Shown piece by piece: positions 29,788 to 37,690 of a DNA stretch of 64,000 bases; position 1 is the first letter of the stretch, and each line of letters begins with the position of its first letter. The notes beneath the pieces were generated by a model, which saw nothing but the letters and a program-made list of their open reading frames with translations, had not been told where the DNA came from and ran no database searches. Origin of the DNA: Natronomonas pharaonis DSM 2160 (GTDB taxonomy: Archaea; Halobacteriota; Halobacteria; Halobacteriales; Haloarculaceae). The DNA lies in the NCBI RefSeq assembly GCF_000026045.1, contig NC_007427.1:62001-126000 (forward strand), in the 5' to 3' direction. The translations under genes and the position numbers were made by a program.

Positions 29788-31062
29788 ATGCCTGAAGTGA
29801 AATTTGAGGTGGACGTCGATAAGGCACCTGACGAACAGCCAGGAGCGAACCCATTTAATCGGTGGCATCCAGATATTCCAGCGGTCATCGAAGCCGAGCC
29901 AGGCGAATCAATGCGGCTGGAGACGCTTGACTGGACAGGCGGACAAATCACAGACAACGACGATCCGAATGAAGTGCGGGACGTAGACTTGAGCCAAGTT
30001 CACTACCTTGCTGGCCCAGTATACGTGAATGGCGCAGAGCCCGGGGACATGCTGAAAGTGGAGTTTCTTGATATGGGGCCGTTGAACGGTCGATCGGAGT
30101 TCGGATTCACCGGTACCTTCTCACAAAAGAACGGGGGTGGATTCCTCACCGATCACTTCCCCCATGCAGCTAAGTCAATCTGGGATATTGAGGGACATAC
30201 GGTCTCTTCGCGGCACATCCCCGGCGTCGAATATGAGGGGAAGATCCATCCCGGGTTGGCGGGGTGTGCACCGAGCAAAGAGCTGCTTGAGACGTGGAAT
30301 GAACGAGAGCAAAAACTGATCGAGAAACACAAAGAAGATCCAGAGTCAATTCCAAACCATCCGACAGGGGAACCGGAGCCGGGCGTCGCGAATCCGCCGA
30401 CATCTGAGGGGGCACTAATGGGGGAGATGGATCCGGAGCAAGCCGAGGAGGCCGCCCAAGAAGCGGCACGGACTGTCCCGCCGCGAGAACACGGCGGAAA
30501 TCACGATATCAAGGACCTCTCCATCGGGTCAACAGTGTACTTCCCGGTGTACGTCGAGGGTGGCAAGTTCGGTATCGGGGATTTCCATGCTTCACAGGGC
30601 GACGGCGAAATCTCATTCTGTGGCGCGATTGAGATGGCAGCGTACGTTGACGTGAAGTTTGACCTCGTCAAAGGTGGGATGGAGAAGTTCGGCGTCGAGC
30701 ATCCGATCTTCGAGCCAGGGCATCGAGGGCCGCACTTTGAGGATTACATCACGTTCTGTGGTTACTCGGTGACAGAAGACGGCGAACAGCGATATATTGA
30801 CTCCCATACGGCGTACCGCCGAGCGTGTCTGCAAGCGATCGATTACCTCAAACAGTTCGGCTACACCGGCCAGCAAGCATTACACATCCTCGGGACAGTT
30901 CCGGTCGAAGGACGACAGAGCGGCGTTGTCGACATACCGAACGCGTGTTCGACGCTCGCGCTTCCCAAAGGGGCCTTCGACTTCGACATCTCACCCGACG
31001 GCATCGAGCAAAACAGCGCCGACCGAGGCGATCTCGTCGTGACTGACGACCCGCTTGGCTAG
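29788..31062 (+). CDS. fmdA: Formamidase/acetamidase family amidohydrolase
   Basis: About 424 residues of the FmdA/AmdA family, which hydrolyses formamide or short amides to ammonia and the acid. The start MPEVKFEVDVDKAPDEQPGANPFNRWHPDIP and the blocks HIPGVEYEGKIHPGLAGCAPS, GGNHDIKDLSIGSTVYFPVYV, FGIGDFHASQGDGEISFCGAIEM and PNACSTLALPKGAFDFDI are typical. The frame extends upstream to 29701, but the ATG at 29788 gives the usual family start and fits the TATA box position. It stands alone, followed by the thermosome-like gene. It may supply nitrogen; the exact amide is unknown. Confidence 0.92.
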   Translation: MPEVKFEVDVDKAPDEQPGANPFNRWHPDIPAVIEAEPGESMRLETLDWTGGQITDNDDPNEVRDVDLSQVHYLAGPVYVNGAEPGDMLKVEFLDMGPLNGRSEFGFTGTFSQKNGGGFLTDHFPHAAKSIWDIEGHTVSSRHIPGVEYEGKIHPGLAGCAPSKELLETWNEREQKLIEKHKEDPESIPNHPTGEPEPGVANPPTSEGALMGEMDPEQAEEAAQEAARTVPPREHGGNHDIKDLSIGSTVYFPVYVEGGKFGIGDFHASQGDGEISFCGAIEMAAYVDVKFDLVKGGMEKFGVEHPIFEPGHRGPHFEDYITFCGYSVTEDGEQRYIDSHTAYRRACLQAIDYLKQFGYTGQQALHILGTVPVEGRQSGVVDIPNACSTLALPKGAFDFDISPDGIEQNSADRGDLVVTDDPLG

Positions 31063-31091: not shown

Positions 31092-32738
31092 ATGGCAGCC
31101 ACGAGACACACAGAACGGACTAGCGGCGAACAGCAACAGCTCATCAATACCGGAACAGTTCTCGCAGACGCAGTTCGGACGACATTCGGTCCGAACGGCA
31201 TGGACAAAATGCTGGTCGGCCGGAATGGGACCGTACTGGTGACCAACGATGGGGCGCGTATCCTAGATCGGATGGAAATTGAGGACCCCGTCGCAACGAC
31301 AGTAGCGCGGGCGGCGAGCAGTCAGCAGGTAGCTACTACCGACGGCACCACGAGAACGGTGCTTCTCACCGGCGCATTGCTCTCGGCCGCGGAGTCGCTG
31401 CTTGCAGCCGGTGTACATCCGACGACGATAATTGATGGATTCAATACGGCGACATACAGCGCTCGTGAGCAACTCCAGTCGTACGGCGTGTATGTCGACG
31501 AAGATGACCGAGAAATGCTCAAAAACGTCGCACGGACGGCGGTCACTGGCCGATGGGACGATGCGAACACGAGGCGGTTCGCCGAGTTGACGGTCGGAGC
31601 GCTGGAGGCTATAGAGTTCGACCGGTCACGGCTGGGTATCGGGGGCTACGCTGGCGGGGAGCTCAGAGACTCAACACTCATTGATGGGATGTGTATCGAT
31701 ATGGAGCAATCGCCAGCAACGGCAGGGGGGTGGGGTAGAGACCAAACAGTGAGAAACGCCCGTGTAGCGATGGTCAACACAGCGATATCGATCGACAAGC
31801 CCGCAGCTGTCGAGGTGGTAACGCTGGCCGACAGTGAGCAGGCCAGTAGGTTTCGCGAGCACGAAGCCGCAATCCGCTCAGAAATCGTTGGGACAATGTG
31901 TGATTCTGGGGTTGATGTCCTCTTTTGTCAAAAGTCGATCGACGAGCAGATTCGAAACGCACTCATTCAGCGAGGGGTACTACCGGTCGAGCGAACGCGT
32001 CAGGACCAGTTTGATGCCATTACTGCGATGACGGGGGCTAAGGCTGTGCAGTCAGTCGGCCAATTCGCGCCGACGATGGCCGGTCACGCTGGAACGGTCC
32101 GACACCGAACAGTCGGAACGACAGAAACAGTATGGGTGACTGACAGTCCAGCAGCAGTCCACCGGTTTCTACTGCTTCGTGGCGGGACCCCACACGTGGC
32201 AGCGGAGAGCGAACGCATCATCGAGACCTGCAGTGATGCAGTTACCCTCGCAGTGAACGAAGGACGCGTGGTACCGGGAGGTGGTGCTAGCATGGTATCG
32301 CTTTCGCGAGCGCTGCGGAGCAAAGCCAAAAGTATTAGCGACCGAGAACAGCTAGTGATCGAGGCCTACGCCGATGCACTCGAAACACTTCCGCAAGCGC
32401 TCGCAAAGAACGCAGGGCGAGACCCGATGGCAACGCTGGCAGAGCTAAAGAGGCGACACGCTGGCGGCGACAAAGCAGTCGGTGTTGGTCCGTCGGGGAC
32501 ACCACGTGAGATGGTTGCGGCTGGCGTCGTGGAACCACGCTCGGTCATCGACCGAAGCCTCACAATCGCCCTTGAGGCTGCATCAATGCTGCTCCGAGTT
32601 GATGAGGTTCTCAGTGCAGACACTGCTGGTGCTGACGGGCAAAGTGGTTCTTGTAATCACGGGGGACGCGCCGAACACAGTTGTACCAGTCAGCCAGGAG
32701 TCGATGCTGGAGGGTATCCGTGGGCGATTAGTCACTGA
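31092..32738 (+). CDS. Divergent group II chaperonin (thermosome/CCT) subunit
   Basis: 548 residues spanning a whole thermosome subunit. Equatorial domain motifs are [31 protein letters not shown] and, in place of the canonical [37 protein letters not shown] is the second equatorial block. The Asp of the nucleotide-hydrolysis motifs is kept, but many canonical residues differ. The C-terminus lacks the Gly-Gly-Met repeats that project into the chamber and ends instead in a Cys/His/Gly-rich tail (SCNHGG...SCTSQPG). It is probably a secondary CCT paralogue that mixes with, or is distinct from, the main thermosome. It starts 30 bp after the formamidase gene. Confidence 0.88.
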
Positions 32739-32868: not shown

Positions 32869-33270
32869 TGGCGGAATGGTCGGTGAGCGGATTTACACAT
32901 CGATAGAGGGGTCTGGCTGCTCCGCGGGACCGGAATTAATGGATTCAAGGGTCCCGGGGATTGACTTCGGGGCAGTCCACAGAACAAAAACCAACTCGAC
33001 GTCGAGTCTCAAGGCGACTAGTTTCACTTAGCTCGCTGCTGTTGGCATGGTTCCTCTCTGTGGACGTCGGGGACAGACACCCCTCTATCGATGTGTTCTA
33101 TCTGTCGAGAGGAAGTAGAGCTGTGCCAGCGGAGAGATTACGATAGCCACGAAACGCACGATACAGGACGACACAAGAGCGTATTCACGGAGAAACTGGT
33201 ATTCCATGGGGGGAGACGAATATCTCAGAGCCATACACATCGAACACATCGATAGAGGGGTGTGTGAGTG

Positions 33271-33350
33271 TTCTTCTAGAAACTAGAAGAAGAAAGAAGA
33301 AGAAACAACACTACAACCTAGTTAAAATATGGCCCGTCTAGAACAAGCAT
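33271..33350. other. Candidate DNA unwinding element with hairpin
   Basis: The arms TTCTTCTAG and CTAGAAGAA (33271-33291, AAA loop) open a run of about 45 bp made almost only of A and G, followed by ctagttaaaatatgg. It lies between origin boxes at 33244 and 33445 and is the lowest-stability stretch near them. Confidence 0.5.
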
Positions 33351-33556
33351 CTAGAAAACAGCGGTTTTAGACGCTAACAAAGGTCTTCTTGATATCGAGT
33401 GCAGCAAGACGGTCGATTCAACCCCCACCCTACCAACTCTTCGAACACATCGATAGAGGGGTGTCTGTCTTGTAGTGGTCTCTCGACAGCATACGATAGC
33501 ACCGACGATGGCGTTCCTTCGTGTTTCGATGGGCCGGCTGGCTCGGTCGCCCAAGC

Positions 33557-33591
33557 AGCCAACGTAGGACACGAGTGCGTCCTTGTTGGCT
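33557..33591. repeat. Inverted repeat AGCCAAC - 21 bp - GTTGGCT in the origin
   Basis: Seven-base arms with a 21-bp spacer, which itself contains GGAC...GTCC. The CCAAC/GTTGG arms and the spacing resemble the parA-upstream repeat (21 bp spacer) and the dispersed TTAACCAACA sites. Confidence 0.45.
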
Positions 33592-33828
33592 AAGCAAGCT
33601 CCGCCCGCTCCAGGCGACGGTGTACTTCGCGTCGGCGGTATTCGAGGAGCCGCATCAATCCACGCTTCGTGTTGCTTCTCCCAAAACACTTCGTCGGACG
33701 CGTTGTTCTTTTGGCGGCTATTTCCAGTTGAACCAGCGCATCTATGGCCTTATACGCTTTACAAACGGCGATTACACTTCGATAGAGGGGTGCGAAGCTT
33801 TTTGTAAGCCGCCTGTGTGAGTCGTCGT

Positions 33829-35298
33829 ATGGGCACTGACGACTCCGACGCTTCTCGGCCCGAGTCGAGAACTCCGGAGGACGAGACCACCCAAGCGGAC
33901 CTTTCTTCGAGTGCGACTTCCTCGAACGTGCCCGCGGATGTCGACCACTCGACGGAGGCTGCCGACGGCTCGCCCGACGCTGGTTCCCGTTCTGACGAGT
34001 CCTCCTCACAATCGATTGAAGATATGTTGCTCGAATTCGACGAACAGGATGGATTAATTCGCGACCGGTCGCTCCTTGACCCGAACTACGTCGTCGACGA
34101 GGACCGGATCGTCGGCCGCGATGACCAACTGCAAGAAGTGACGAAGATGTTGCGGGTGACACTCGGCGATAATCGTCCGCCAAACCTCTTCCTGTATGGC
34201 CCGTCCGGAACTGGGAAATCACTCATCACGAAGGCCGTCTGCAACAACATCAACCGTATCTGTGAGACGCGTGACATCGACTTCGGGACTATTGAAGTCA
34301 ACTGCCAAGACCTCGACACCCTCGGCGTTGCCGTCTACGAGTTGGCAACGCAGGCCGCCGAACAGGCCGGCGTTGCTGTCCAAGTCCCGAAACACGGCGT
34401 CGCAACCAAAGAAAAATGGGACGAGCTGTTCCGCATTGTCAACGAGAACTTCGATTCCGTCGTGTTCGTTCTGGACGAACTCGACATGCTCGTCGGTCGA
34501 CGCGATAAACAGGAGCCGGCGTTTTCGCGACTGCTGTATCAGCTGTCGCGGGCCGAGGCCACCAACGACCTGCGGGCGTACCTCTCGGTCGTGGCGATCT
34601 CTAATGACACCAAGATGATGGAGTCGGTTGGCAGCCGCGCGTTGAGTTCGTTCACGCCCGAAGACGTCCACTTCGACGACTACGATGCAAACCAGCTTCA
34701 GACGATCCTCCGCCATCGACAGGATGCCTTTCACGATGGCGTCGTCGACGATGACGTTATTCCACTCGCCGCTGCATTCGCCGCCCAGACCCACGGCGAT
34801 GCTCGAAAAGCCATTGACCTGATGCGCGTCGCTGGCGAACTCGCCGAGCGTGAGGGCAGCACCCGGGTCCGCGAAGAGCACGTCCGACAGGCACAGGAAA
34901 AAGTCGAAAAGAACCGCGTCCTCGAAGTTGTCCGCGGTATCAGCACACAAAAGAAGCTCTGTCTGTACGCAACGGCAGCGGTAGCCGCCCAAACCGATGG
35001 TGGGACGGCCCGCAGTACCACCGGCTACCGCGTCTATCAGTTCCTCACAGACTCGATCAATGCCGACCAGTACCACCAAGAAACGTACGTCAACAAAATG
35101 AAGGAGCTAACGACGTACTCGCTTGTCGACTTCGAACGGCGGAGCCACGGCCCCAGCTCCGGAATGTTCCTTGAGTTCCAATTTGGCGAGCGTCCGGAGA
35201 CGATTCTCGAGACGCTCCGTGAGGATTCCCGAATCGAGATGGTTACCTCCGAGGAAGTGCAGTCGGTTGTGCAGGCTCAAATCCGAAAGCAGACGTAG
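33829..35298 (+). CDS. orc1: Orc1/Cdc6 replication initiator
   Basis: About 489 residues. A disordered acidic Ser/Thr-rich N-terminus (first ~75 residues) precedes the AAA+ domain: Walker A LYGPSGTGKSLITK, Walker B SVVFVLDELDMLVGRRD, sensor 1 LSVVAISNDTKMMESVGSRALSSF, and sensor 2 HGDARKAIDLMRVAGELAEREG. A C-terminal winged helix (YRVYQFLTDSINADQYHQETYVNKMKELTTYSLVDFERRS) should bind the flanking boxes. It recruits MCM at the replicon origin. The ATG at 33829 is preferred to the GTG at 33817. Boxes lie immediately upstream and downstream. Confidence 0.95.
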   Translation: MGTDDSDASRPESRTPEDETTQADLSSSATSSNVPADVDHSTEAADGSPDAGSRSDESSSQSIEDMLLEFDEQDGLIRDRSLLDPNYVVDEDRIVGRDDQLQEVTKMLRVTLGDNRPPNLFLYGPSGTGKSLITKAVCNNINRICETRDIDFGTIEVNCQDLDTLGVAVYELATQAAEQAGVAVQVPKHGVATKEKWDELFRIVNENFDSVVFVLDELDMLVGRRDKQEPAFSRLLYQLSRAEATNDLRAYLSVVAISNDTKMMESVGSRALSSFTPEDVHFDDYDANQLQTILRHRQDAFHDGVVDDDVIPLAAAFAAQTHGDARKAIDLMRVAGELAEREGSTRVREEHVRQAQEKVEKNRVLEVVRGISTQKKLCLYATAAVAAQTDGGTARSTTGYRVYQFLTDSINADQYHQETYVNKMKELTTYSLVDFERRSHGPSSGMFLEFQFGERPETILETLREDSRIEMVTSEEVQSVVQAQIRKQT

Positions 35299-35738
35299 CC
35301 CGTTACAGTTCTGTCTTTTTGGGTTCTGATTTTTCTGGTCTTGGTGGGTTCATACCAGAACCGAGGCGGATGCTACGTGGCTTGCTCCCAAGGCAGTTGC
35401 CCGCGACAGCTGACTCCGTCCACGCGGTGGTCCGGCCTTCTGTCCATCTGTTGGGGCGCCGGCGGAGACACCCCTCTATCGATGTGTATCAATCATGTGG
35501 TATCGTATCGCAGCCTGTCGAGCTCTTCGTCCGTTCACGCACCCCTCTATCGATGTGTACTGGATATGTAATATCGTGCCACAGCCGTGGCGATAATCGA
35601 CTGACACTGTTTCGATTGCACCCCTCTATCGATGTGTATTAGCGGCTGGAGACCGTGCCACATCGCCATCCGCACTCAAGCAGCGTTTCTCGATACACCC
35701 CTCTATCGATGTGTTTCAACCGTGACTCACTTAACTTA
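35299..35738. other. Downstream half of the origin (four boxes)
   Basis: 440 bp without a gene. It contains four ACCCCTCTATCGATGTGT boxes at 35470, 35541, 35620 and 35697, all in one orientation and about 70-80 bp apart. Open frames here simply read through the boxes. Confidence 0.8.
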
Positions 35739-35839: not shown

Positions 35840-37690
35840 ATGCGCGACAGACGGGCCGCCGACGCTGACAACCCAGCGGATACCGACAGTCTTGATTCCG
35901 CTGTCAGCGCTACGTCCCCGCAAGCGGCGGTGGTACCAACACCAAGCGAGGTCCACGGAACAGACAACGCAACCGGCTACGTCGTCTGGCATCGAAAGCA
36001 CCTCCGGACTGCCGACCAGCTGGCGCTCACGCGGGCGGTTTCCGGAGGTGATGTCGTCTGCCCGCTGTTGGTTTTCGATCCAGCATTCTACGGTGACGGT
36101 GGGCTTGCGTGCGACGCTCGGATTCGGTTCTTTCATGAGGCGGTCGCGAGCCTTGACCGGCTCTATGCCGCAGCGCCGGCACCGACGGTCACACGAACAG
36201 CCGAGGCCCCCCGAGAGCGGCTGGCTGCGACAACGCCGCTGTCACTGAACGAGACTCGAGAGGACGACCGCACGGCCGAAGACTCACTTTCCGGCGCATC
36301 CTCCCCCGGCCTAACTATCGGATACGGTTCTCCGCCAACAGTGCTTCAGCGGTTTGCGAACAAAGGATGGACGATCCTGACGATGGCGACTCCAACCAGT
36401 CGGTATGGCAAGCGCCGGGACGACCGTGTTCGGGATGTCTGTGGGAATAGCATCGAGTTCATCTCAGGTGACGGCCTTGTCCGTGGACAGGAATGGTCTC
36501 GGACCAACTGGCAGACACACGTCGAAACGTGGCTCAACGAGGCCCCGCATACTCCGGCGTGGAGTACCGCCGACACAACGCAATTCGTACTCGAAACGGG
36601 TATCACGCCGGCCGCAATCGATGCTGCATTCGACATTTCGCCCTCGAAAACCTTGGTTCCGACCGGTACGCACCGCCGGGCAGCCGAACGGCTGCGTTCG
36701 TTCGTCGAACGGATACACTCCTATCCGGGGAACATCTCTGCGCCACAGGATGCCAGAGAAGCGTCCAGCGGCCTGTCGCCGTATCTCAATTTCGGCCTGC
36801 TTTCCGTCCGGCAGGTGTATCAGTCGGTAAGCGAGCAGGCTCCGGAGTGTCGGGGCCGGCAGATGTTCACCGACCGATTGGTCTGGAATCTCCACTACAA
36901 CCAGAAGCTGGTCGATTGGCCGGGATGGACCGACACAGCAGTCAACCCAGTTTTCGAGGACTTCAACCGCGACCACCACGACCCGGAGTTGGTTCAGGCA
37001 TGGAAAGGCGGTGAGACGGGCTTCCCCATGGTTGATGCGGCGATGCGGTGTCTGCGACAGACCGGCTGGCTCAACTTTCGGATGCGAGCGATGTGTGCGT
37101 CCTTTTTCGTGCATATCCTCCAGCAGCCGTGGTGGATCGGCGCTGACTGGTACCACCATCACCTTATCGACAGCGACGTCGGAATCAACTACACGCAGTG
37201 GCAAAGCCAAGCGGGAACGATCGGCAAACCCGTCCAGCGAGTATACAACCCACGCAAGCAGGTCCGCGATCACGACCCCGACGGCGACTGGATCTGCAGG
37301 TGGCTCCCCGAACTGGCCCCGCTCCCAAACACGTTTCTTGACCGGCCCGAGCGAACACCGCTGGCAGTACAGACCGACTGTGGTGTCACCATCGGCGACG
37401 ACTATCCGCGTCCAGTCGTCGATTTTGACGCTCGCCGTGAGGCGTTCTGGTCACGGTACGAACGGCACCACCCAGCCGCTGCTCGCCAGCTTGCGCGCCC
37501 GGAAATCGCAAAACGAGCATCGTTTTCTGGTGGATACGACGCTGCGAAATCCATCGCGGCCGAGTACGGAGACAGCGCCGAAGACAGCGCTGCCGACATG
37601 CAGCTTTCACTTTCCGACGCTGCCAGTCTGGATGAGGCAGCAGATGCAGCCGAAGACGAGATGGGTGGGGACGGGACGGACGAGTCTTAG
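35840..37690 (+). CDS. DNA photolyase/cryptochrome family flavoprotein
   Basis: About 616 residues. An N-terminal photolyase alpha/beta domain (YVVWHRKHLRTADQLALTRAV ... VVCPLLVFDPAF) and a FAD-binding domain are visible: SSGLSPYLNFGLLSVRQVYQ, RLVWNLHYNQKLVDWPGW, WKGGETGFPMVDAAMRCLRQTGWLNFRMRAMCASFF and WYHHHLIDSDVGINYTQWQSQAG. It should bind FAD and use blue light to repair cyclobutane dimers or act as a sensor. The FAD loop reads DSDVGINYTQWQ rather than the common DGD-x-A-x-N-x-x-W form, so it belongs to a divergent group. Acidic tails occur at both ends. The start codon is uncertain. Confidence 0.88.
   Translation: MRDRRAADADNPADTDSLDSAVSATSPQAAVVPTPSEVHGTDNATGYVVWHRKHLRTADQLALTRAVSGGDVVCPLLVFDPAFYGDGGLACDARIRFFHEAVASLDRLYAAAPAPTVTRTAEAPRERLAATTPLSLNETREDDRTAEDSLSGASSPGLTIGYGSPPTVLQRFANKGWTILTMATPTSRYGKRRDDRVRDVCGNSIEFISGDGLVRGQEWSRTNWQTHVETWLNEAPHTPAWSTADTTQFVLETGITPAAIDAAFDISPSKTLVPTGTHRRAAERLRSFVERIHSYPGNISAPQDAREASSGLSPYLNFGLLSVRQVYQSVSEQAPECRGRQMFTDRLVWNLHYNQKLVDWPGWTDTAVNPVFEDFNRDHHDPELVQAWKGGETGFPMVDAAMRCLRQTGWLNFRMRAMCASFFVHILQQPWWIGADWYHHHLIDSDVGINYTQWQSQAGTIGKPVQRVYNPRKQVRDHDPDGDWICRWLPELAPLPNTFLDRPERTPLAVQTDCGVTIGDDYPRPVVDFDARREAFWSRYERHHPAAARQLARPEIAKRASFSGGYDAAKSIAAEYGDSAEDSAADMQLSLSDAASLDEAADAAEDEMGGDGTDES

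Follow-up and report, generated by a model that had tools for sequence, protein, structure and literature searches.

The window analysed here, a stretch of 64,000 nucleotides, comprises bases 62001–126000 of the 130,989-bp contig C2 in a genome of 2,749,696 bp. The two other contigs measure 2,595,221 bp and the remaining 23,486 bp, and we take the three to be the chromosome, pL131 (the 130,989-bp replicon bearing the window) and pL23 of Natronomonas pharaonis. The window holds an orc1/cdc6 initiator gene surrounded by nine 18-bp boxes, eight of them exact and one with a single mismatch (Table 1). The Orc1 protein matches TIGR02928 at 440 bits and carries Cdc6_lid and Cdc6_C domains, so that the boxes adjoin an orc/cdc6 gene encoding more than 300 residues with AAA+ and winged-helix domains, one of the marks by which Wu et al. 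(2012) recognize such origins. The initiator is thus of the Orc1/Cdc6 kind and not of the RepA/RepE type used by the iteron plasmids P1 and F. A search of pL131 with this Orc1 gave one full match only on the replicon. Translation most likely starts at the ATG at 33829 (489 amino acids), as in annotated relatives, and not at the GTG at 33817. On either side of the origin lie genes whose translations resemble a thermosome chaperonin and a photolyase (window 31092–32738 and 35840–37690), and no partition gene was recognized among the translations adjoining it.

Table 1 Features of the pL131 origin region, in window coordinates.
Feature	Position	Strand	Basis
L2, outermost left box	32895–32912	+	Box pattern; minus in relatives
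L1, left core box	33079–33096	-	Box pattern; class L1 exact in 42/46
Tandem half-site ACACATCGA directly 5' of R1	33235–33243	+	Sequence; relatives
R1, right core box	33244–33261	+	Box pattern
Purine tract 3' of R1, candidate unwinding element	33278–33310	+	Same-place tract in 27/38 members
R2, right box	33445–33462	+	Box pattern; class R2 exact in 34/40
P, promoter box, one mismatch, probable autorepression operator	33774–33791	+	P in 45/48 members
TATA-like element, orc1 promoter (ctttttgtaa)	33798–33807	+	Read from sequence
orc1/cdc6 initiator gene, 489 aa	33829–35298	+	AAA+, winged-helix domains; start by relatives
D1, downstream array box	35470–35487	-	Box pattern
D2, downstream array box	35541–35558	-	Box pattern
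D3, downstream array box	35620–35637	-	Box pattern
D4, downstream array box	35697–35714	-	Box pattern

All nine boxes of the original prediction were recovered, at the places and in the orientations it gave. Searching shuffled windows with the box pattern, allowing up to 3 mismatches, yielded a mean of 0.05 chance matches per window, and nine were reached in 0 of 100 shuffles. The predicted spacings needed slight correction: the downstream boxes follow one another at 71, 79 and 77 bp, start to start (62–79 bp had been claimed), and the upstream boxes span 897 bp (880 bp had been claimed). Two further marks listed by Wu et al. (2012) are present, namely at least two inverted origin recognition boxes (ORBs) in the flanking intergenic region and the halophile G-string, represented by the GGGGT that ends each box, with only four consecutive G. 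In relatives conservation extends beyond the 18 bp, L1, R1 and R2 reading GA-ACACATCGATAGAGGGGT-GT with a flank agreement of 87–100%, which brings the length of the element near that of an ordinary ORB. The G-rich box ends point away from the L1–R1 interval, as they do at oriC1 of Haloarcula hispanica when read from the published sites (PMC3936714). A literature search for the exact letters of the box returned no match, logos in figures not being searchable.

The exact 18-mer was found in 78 stretches of a bacterial and archaeal genome collection, 77 of them titled as haloarchaea and one only as Euryarchaeota; the origin type is common to many salt-loving archaea. Conservation of the boxes near orthologous orc1 genes, the test attached to the original prediction, was borne out by 53 of the 78 stretches (up to 8 kb), which also hold an Orc1 68–89% identical to that of the window; the remaining stretches are incomplete blocks, fragments, loci of a different Orc1 or boxes standing alone. 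The description of the boxes as a replicon-specific set does not survive this comparison, since dozens of replicons in many haloarchaeal genera use the same 18-mer. Among 60 genomes (its own and relatives), 18 have the box at up to one mismatch, many as a single copy that is one base off, a patchiness expected of a plasmid replicon. In the family, whose members are related, so that counts across them are not independent, the order is left minus boxes, L1 (minus), R1 (plus), R2 (plus), P, orc1 and a downstream minus array, with mostly 165–230 bp from L1 to R1 and mostly 170–250 bp from R1 to R2. The layout on pL131 is odd in two respects: its outermost left box is on the plus strand, versus minus in relatives, and R2 lies approximately 200 bp farther from the gene. 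When 11 complete relatives were searched for the pattern, nearly all boxes found were at the origin, and a general Orc1 regulon was rejected on the near absence of boxes elsewhere.

The right core box is embedded in an asymmetric module. The tandem half-site directly before R1, counted at up to 2 mismatches, is present in 40 of 45 members, with 31 exact copies, and precedes R2 in 20/40, L1 in 13/46, downstream boxes in 9/159 and P in 0/45. After R1 comes GTGTGT, and 27 of 38 members, among them the window's own, also have a purine tract (at least 24 nt, at least 90% purine) that begins approximately 30–40 bases past the start of R1 and is always on the same strand. At this threshold 11 of the 38 have no tract at the R1 place, and tracts occur elsewhere in the region in 7/38; the R1 analyses exclude four loci whose R1 is inverted (L042, L043, L063 and L071). 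On pL131 the tract is the purine-rich hairpin stretch previously noted among the upstream boxes. Wu et al. (2012) also look for an AT-rich unwinding element between ORBs; here the DNA between the core boxes is only mildly AT-rich (52% AT versus 43% in orc1), and the purine tract is therefore taken as the candidate unwinding element.

Box letters change with the initiator. Beside the main family, plasmids whose Orc1 is 65–69% identical to that of pL131 carry the box ACAAATCGATAGRGGTG (5 records fetched of 8 such plasmid records listed), and those at 47–52% identity carry ACACATCGATGACGGGG (5 plasmid records and 2 genome loci, of which L193 is the most divergent). The first two of these three Orc1 subfamilies differ at 37 fixed positions, 6 of them in the winged-helix part. 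Three box sequences for three Orc1 subfamilies support the proposed co-evolution of boxes and Orc1. Main-family and sister-type origins reside on separate plasmids in four strains or species (Haloarcula sp. CBA1115, Natrinema zhouii, Haloplanus rubicundus and Natrinema caseinilyticum), and among 42 listed records with at least 75% identity only Halocatena marina occurs twice, from two sampling sites, a pattern of plasmid co-occurrence that would fit incompatibility by box type. One 47–52%-type origin (L191) also has three 65–69%-type boxes approximately 600–690 bp before orc1 and is a composite of two origin types.

The box at 33774 lies on the orc1 promoter, as had been proposed, against the TATA-like element. 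Of the 48 members with a mapped start and enough upstream sequence, 45 have a plus-strand P box between −60 and −20 relative to the aligned start, and all 12 ATG-aligned sequences (11 annotated plasmids and the window) have it at −55 to −53 relative to the ATG. The three exceptions comprise a 6-mismatch P at the usual place (L029), a displaced P (L062) and a locus with no P (L075). As a control, 100-bp segments drawn at random from these loci, with real boxes only partly excluded, typically gave a best match with 7–9 mismatches. No copy of P is exact (0/45), in contrast to the L1 and R2 classes, and its departures are systematic, with T at position 16 in 44/45 and G at position 18 in 39/45; the P of pL131 is the least degenerate of the 45, with one mismatch and G at position 16. 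A T-rich TATA-like element follows P directly, approximately 27 bp before the ATG, a distance at which the orc1 transcript would likely be leaderless. The sister families have remade the promoter box in their own letters: a degenerate AGAAATCGACAGGGGAA or looser variants precede the TATA element in 5/5 promoters of the 65–69% type, and ATACATCGACGGAGGTC or close variants do so in three of the 47–52% type. This tracking of the specificity change is the best evidence here that Orc1 binds the promoter box, which is probably an autorepression operator of orc1. No described promoter ORB in haloarchaea was found in a literature search.

The four downstream boxes lie 172–399 bp past the orc1 stop codon, an ORB cluster of the oriC2D type directly behind the initiator gene. 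At least one downstream box is present within 700 bp of the stop in 55 of 59 members, with 177 boxes on the minus strand and 3 on the plus strand; two of the four members without an array at that distance (L052 and L060) have it 1.3–1.9 kb away. Conservation is lower in the array, where 64 of 159 boxes are exact. In the five records of the 65–69% sister family, 19/19 downstream boxes are on the plus strand. Directions that are uniform within each family yet opposite between them suggest that the arrays arose by tandem duplication and that their orientation with respect to the gene is of little consequence, which weakens array orientation as a functional feature. The arrangement resembles that of oriC2–cdc6E–oriC2D in H. 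hispanica, with ORBs 5' of the initiator gene and an ORB-rich restraining region 3' of it (PMC3936714). There the array of 11 ORBs behind cdc6E, compared with four on pL131, could be deleted only together with oriC2; oriC2D had no origin activity and lowered plasmid replication, which was interpreted as titration of Cdc6E (PMC3936714). The likeness is one of layout; 30 further Haloarcula Orc1 matches, in five genomes, are at most 50% identical, and none could be named as Cdc6E. The available part of that report describes no promoter box for oriC2 (PMC3936714), and a review states that many predicted origins share the structure of an initiator gene with a downstream array (PMC4010727).

Conservation next to an Orc1 of 68–89% identity and co-variation with Orc1 type both support the original reading of the boxes as origin boxes of the adjacent gene: they are probably binding sites of the adjoining Orc1 that mark the start of megaplasmid replication, and the downstream array and P probably have control roles distinct from the origin proper. 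We put at roughly 0.78 the probability that the pL131 origin and its initiator gene work as a self-limiting circuit. In such a circuit, Orc1 would bind L1 and R1, which face apart across approximately 150 bp, and also the outer sites R2 and L2; it would load the helicase and open the DNA beside R1, the half-site, GT and purine stretch being the probable place. Surplus Orc1 would then occupy the weaker P, which abuts the orc1 TATA element, and shut its own promoter. D1–D4, all in the same direction, would bind further Orc1 and restrain firing by titration or origin pairing; by analogy with oriC2D, the pL131 array most likely restrains the origin in the same manner. Against this reading weigh the mildness of the AT-richness between the boxes, the 11 of 38 members with no purine tract at R1 and, on pL131 itself, a P that is the least degenerate of its class and an outermost left box whose direction is the reverse of that in relatives.

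The last of these steps faces the strongest competition. Instead of titrating Orc1, the array might serve as a second, half origin or in partition, or be no more than a relic of tandem duplication, and its lower box conservation, its uniform direction that is reversed in the sister family, as duplication would give, and its absence within 700 bp in 4/59 members (two of which have it farther away) all lean that way. Retention in 55/59 members and the behaviour of oriC2D, which lowers origin activity and has none itself (PMC3936714), make this rather unlikely in our judgement. Two alternatives concern the origin as a whole. The boxes and Orc1 could be intact at a dormant origin while pL131 fires elsewhere or by another initiator; two of seven predicted H. 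hispanica origins showed no autonomous replication (PMC3528665). Against dormancy stand the single full match that a search of pL131 for Orc1 initiators gave, the layout kept across many genera and a switch in GC skew: the strongest contrast on the replicon falls at 95,341, inside the box region at 94,895–95,791, and the other extreme lies near 29,850. The cumulative skew has a range that 2.4% of block shuffles (0.024) also reach, which makes it only modestly unusual. We regard a dormant origin as improbable. In 10 other complete plasmids the skew had the same sign in 6, no better than chance; the signal is therefore not a general mark of the pL131 origin type, and GC skew was set aside as proof of origin use.

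The boxes could also be mainly operators, Orc1 being a regulator and not an initiator, like Orc1-2 of Sulfolobus, an archaeal Orc1-type protein that binds other promoters besides its own (PMC9738581). The position of P on the orc1 promoter would suit such a role. Regulation, however, needs neither inverted pairs spread over approximately 900 bp, mostly far from the promoter, nor an array, boxes away from the origin are almost absent on the 11 complete relatives, and the Sulfolobus motif, ANTTTC, is unrelated (PMC9738581), so that we hold a mainly regulatory role to be very improbable. We retain the self-limiting origin as the preferred reading.

An origin on pL131 has been predicted in print, since Table 1 of Wu et al. 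(2012) lists one Cdc6 for the replicon and terms it origin-associated (PMC3528665). The replicon and its single orc/cdc6 gene are taken to be the same as those described here, and the available part of that study gives no box letters, layout or control roles for pL131 (PMC3528665). The pL131 origin is therefore of a known kind and already predicted, now with new, testable control features; as far as the literature search tells, what is new is the conserved weakened P, the way it varies together with the Orc1 type, and the asymmetric module at R1.

In the plasmids P1 (oriR–repA–incA) and F (ori2–repE–incC), repeats at the origin are combined with an autoregulated initiator gene, and copies of these repeats form a control array behind that gene. 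These iteron plasmids use bacterial Rep proteins and close direct repeats, in contrast to the Orc1 and the widely spaced inverted boxes of pL131. In Escherichia coli, datA lies far from the dnaA gene. Titration of the initiator by datA and the boxes in the autoregulated dnaA promoter (cited in PMC3936714) follow the same logic as that proposed for pL131, with unrelated sites and an unrelated initiator. It is an even bet, in our view, that a widespread type of archaeal megaplasmid independently reached the logic of iteron plasmids with a eukaryote-like initiator: high-affinity Orc1 boxes would fire the origin, the weakened P would close a negative feedback loop, the array would set copy number and incompatibility, the box letters would define incompatibility groups diverging with Orc1, and the asymmetric module of half-site, box and purine tract at R1 would unwind the DNA. 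The limits on initiation at archaeal Orc1 origins are poorly known, and P, fixed in place, never perfect in 45 cases and remade in sister letters, offers a cheap handle on autoregulation of an archaeal initiator. Since box letters track the Orc1 subfamily, they can also serve in practice to group haloarchaeal megaplasmids by candidate compatibility and to build compatible vectors.

Boxes were also observed in other settings. A tenth exact box on pL131 lies outside the window at C2:33518–33535 (L129:13518), roughly opposite the origin at a distance of approximately 61 kb. It is solitary, sits between convergent gene ends, has 25 bp in common with R2 and has no Orc1 fragment near it; we interpret it as a relic or a stray site of titration, a reading that makes no use of its place opposite the origin. 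pHLAC01 likewise has an isolated box (at 94865), approximately 1 kb from an integrase gene. A second, origin-like cluster occurs in pHTIA. In record NC_021913.1 (L183, 47.4–49.6 kb), a second minus-minus-plus-plus cluster with another minus box 1.7 kb on likely gives one plasmid two origins of this family. Two other genomes of the same genus have orphan downstream boxes (L135:6716–6971 and L136:4504–4548), with a different orc1 adjoining in both and, in the first (L135, also L065), only a C-terminal fragment of the main-family Orc1; these boxes are an eroded origin of the pL131 type. In two genera, a single main-family box is found, in a like manner, amid boxes of another G-rich type ending CGGGGGGTC (L044:3969 and L068:7562).
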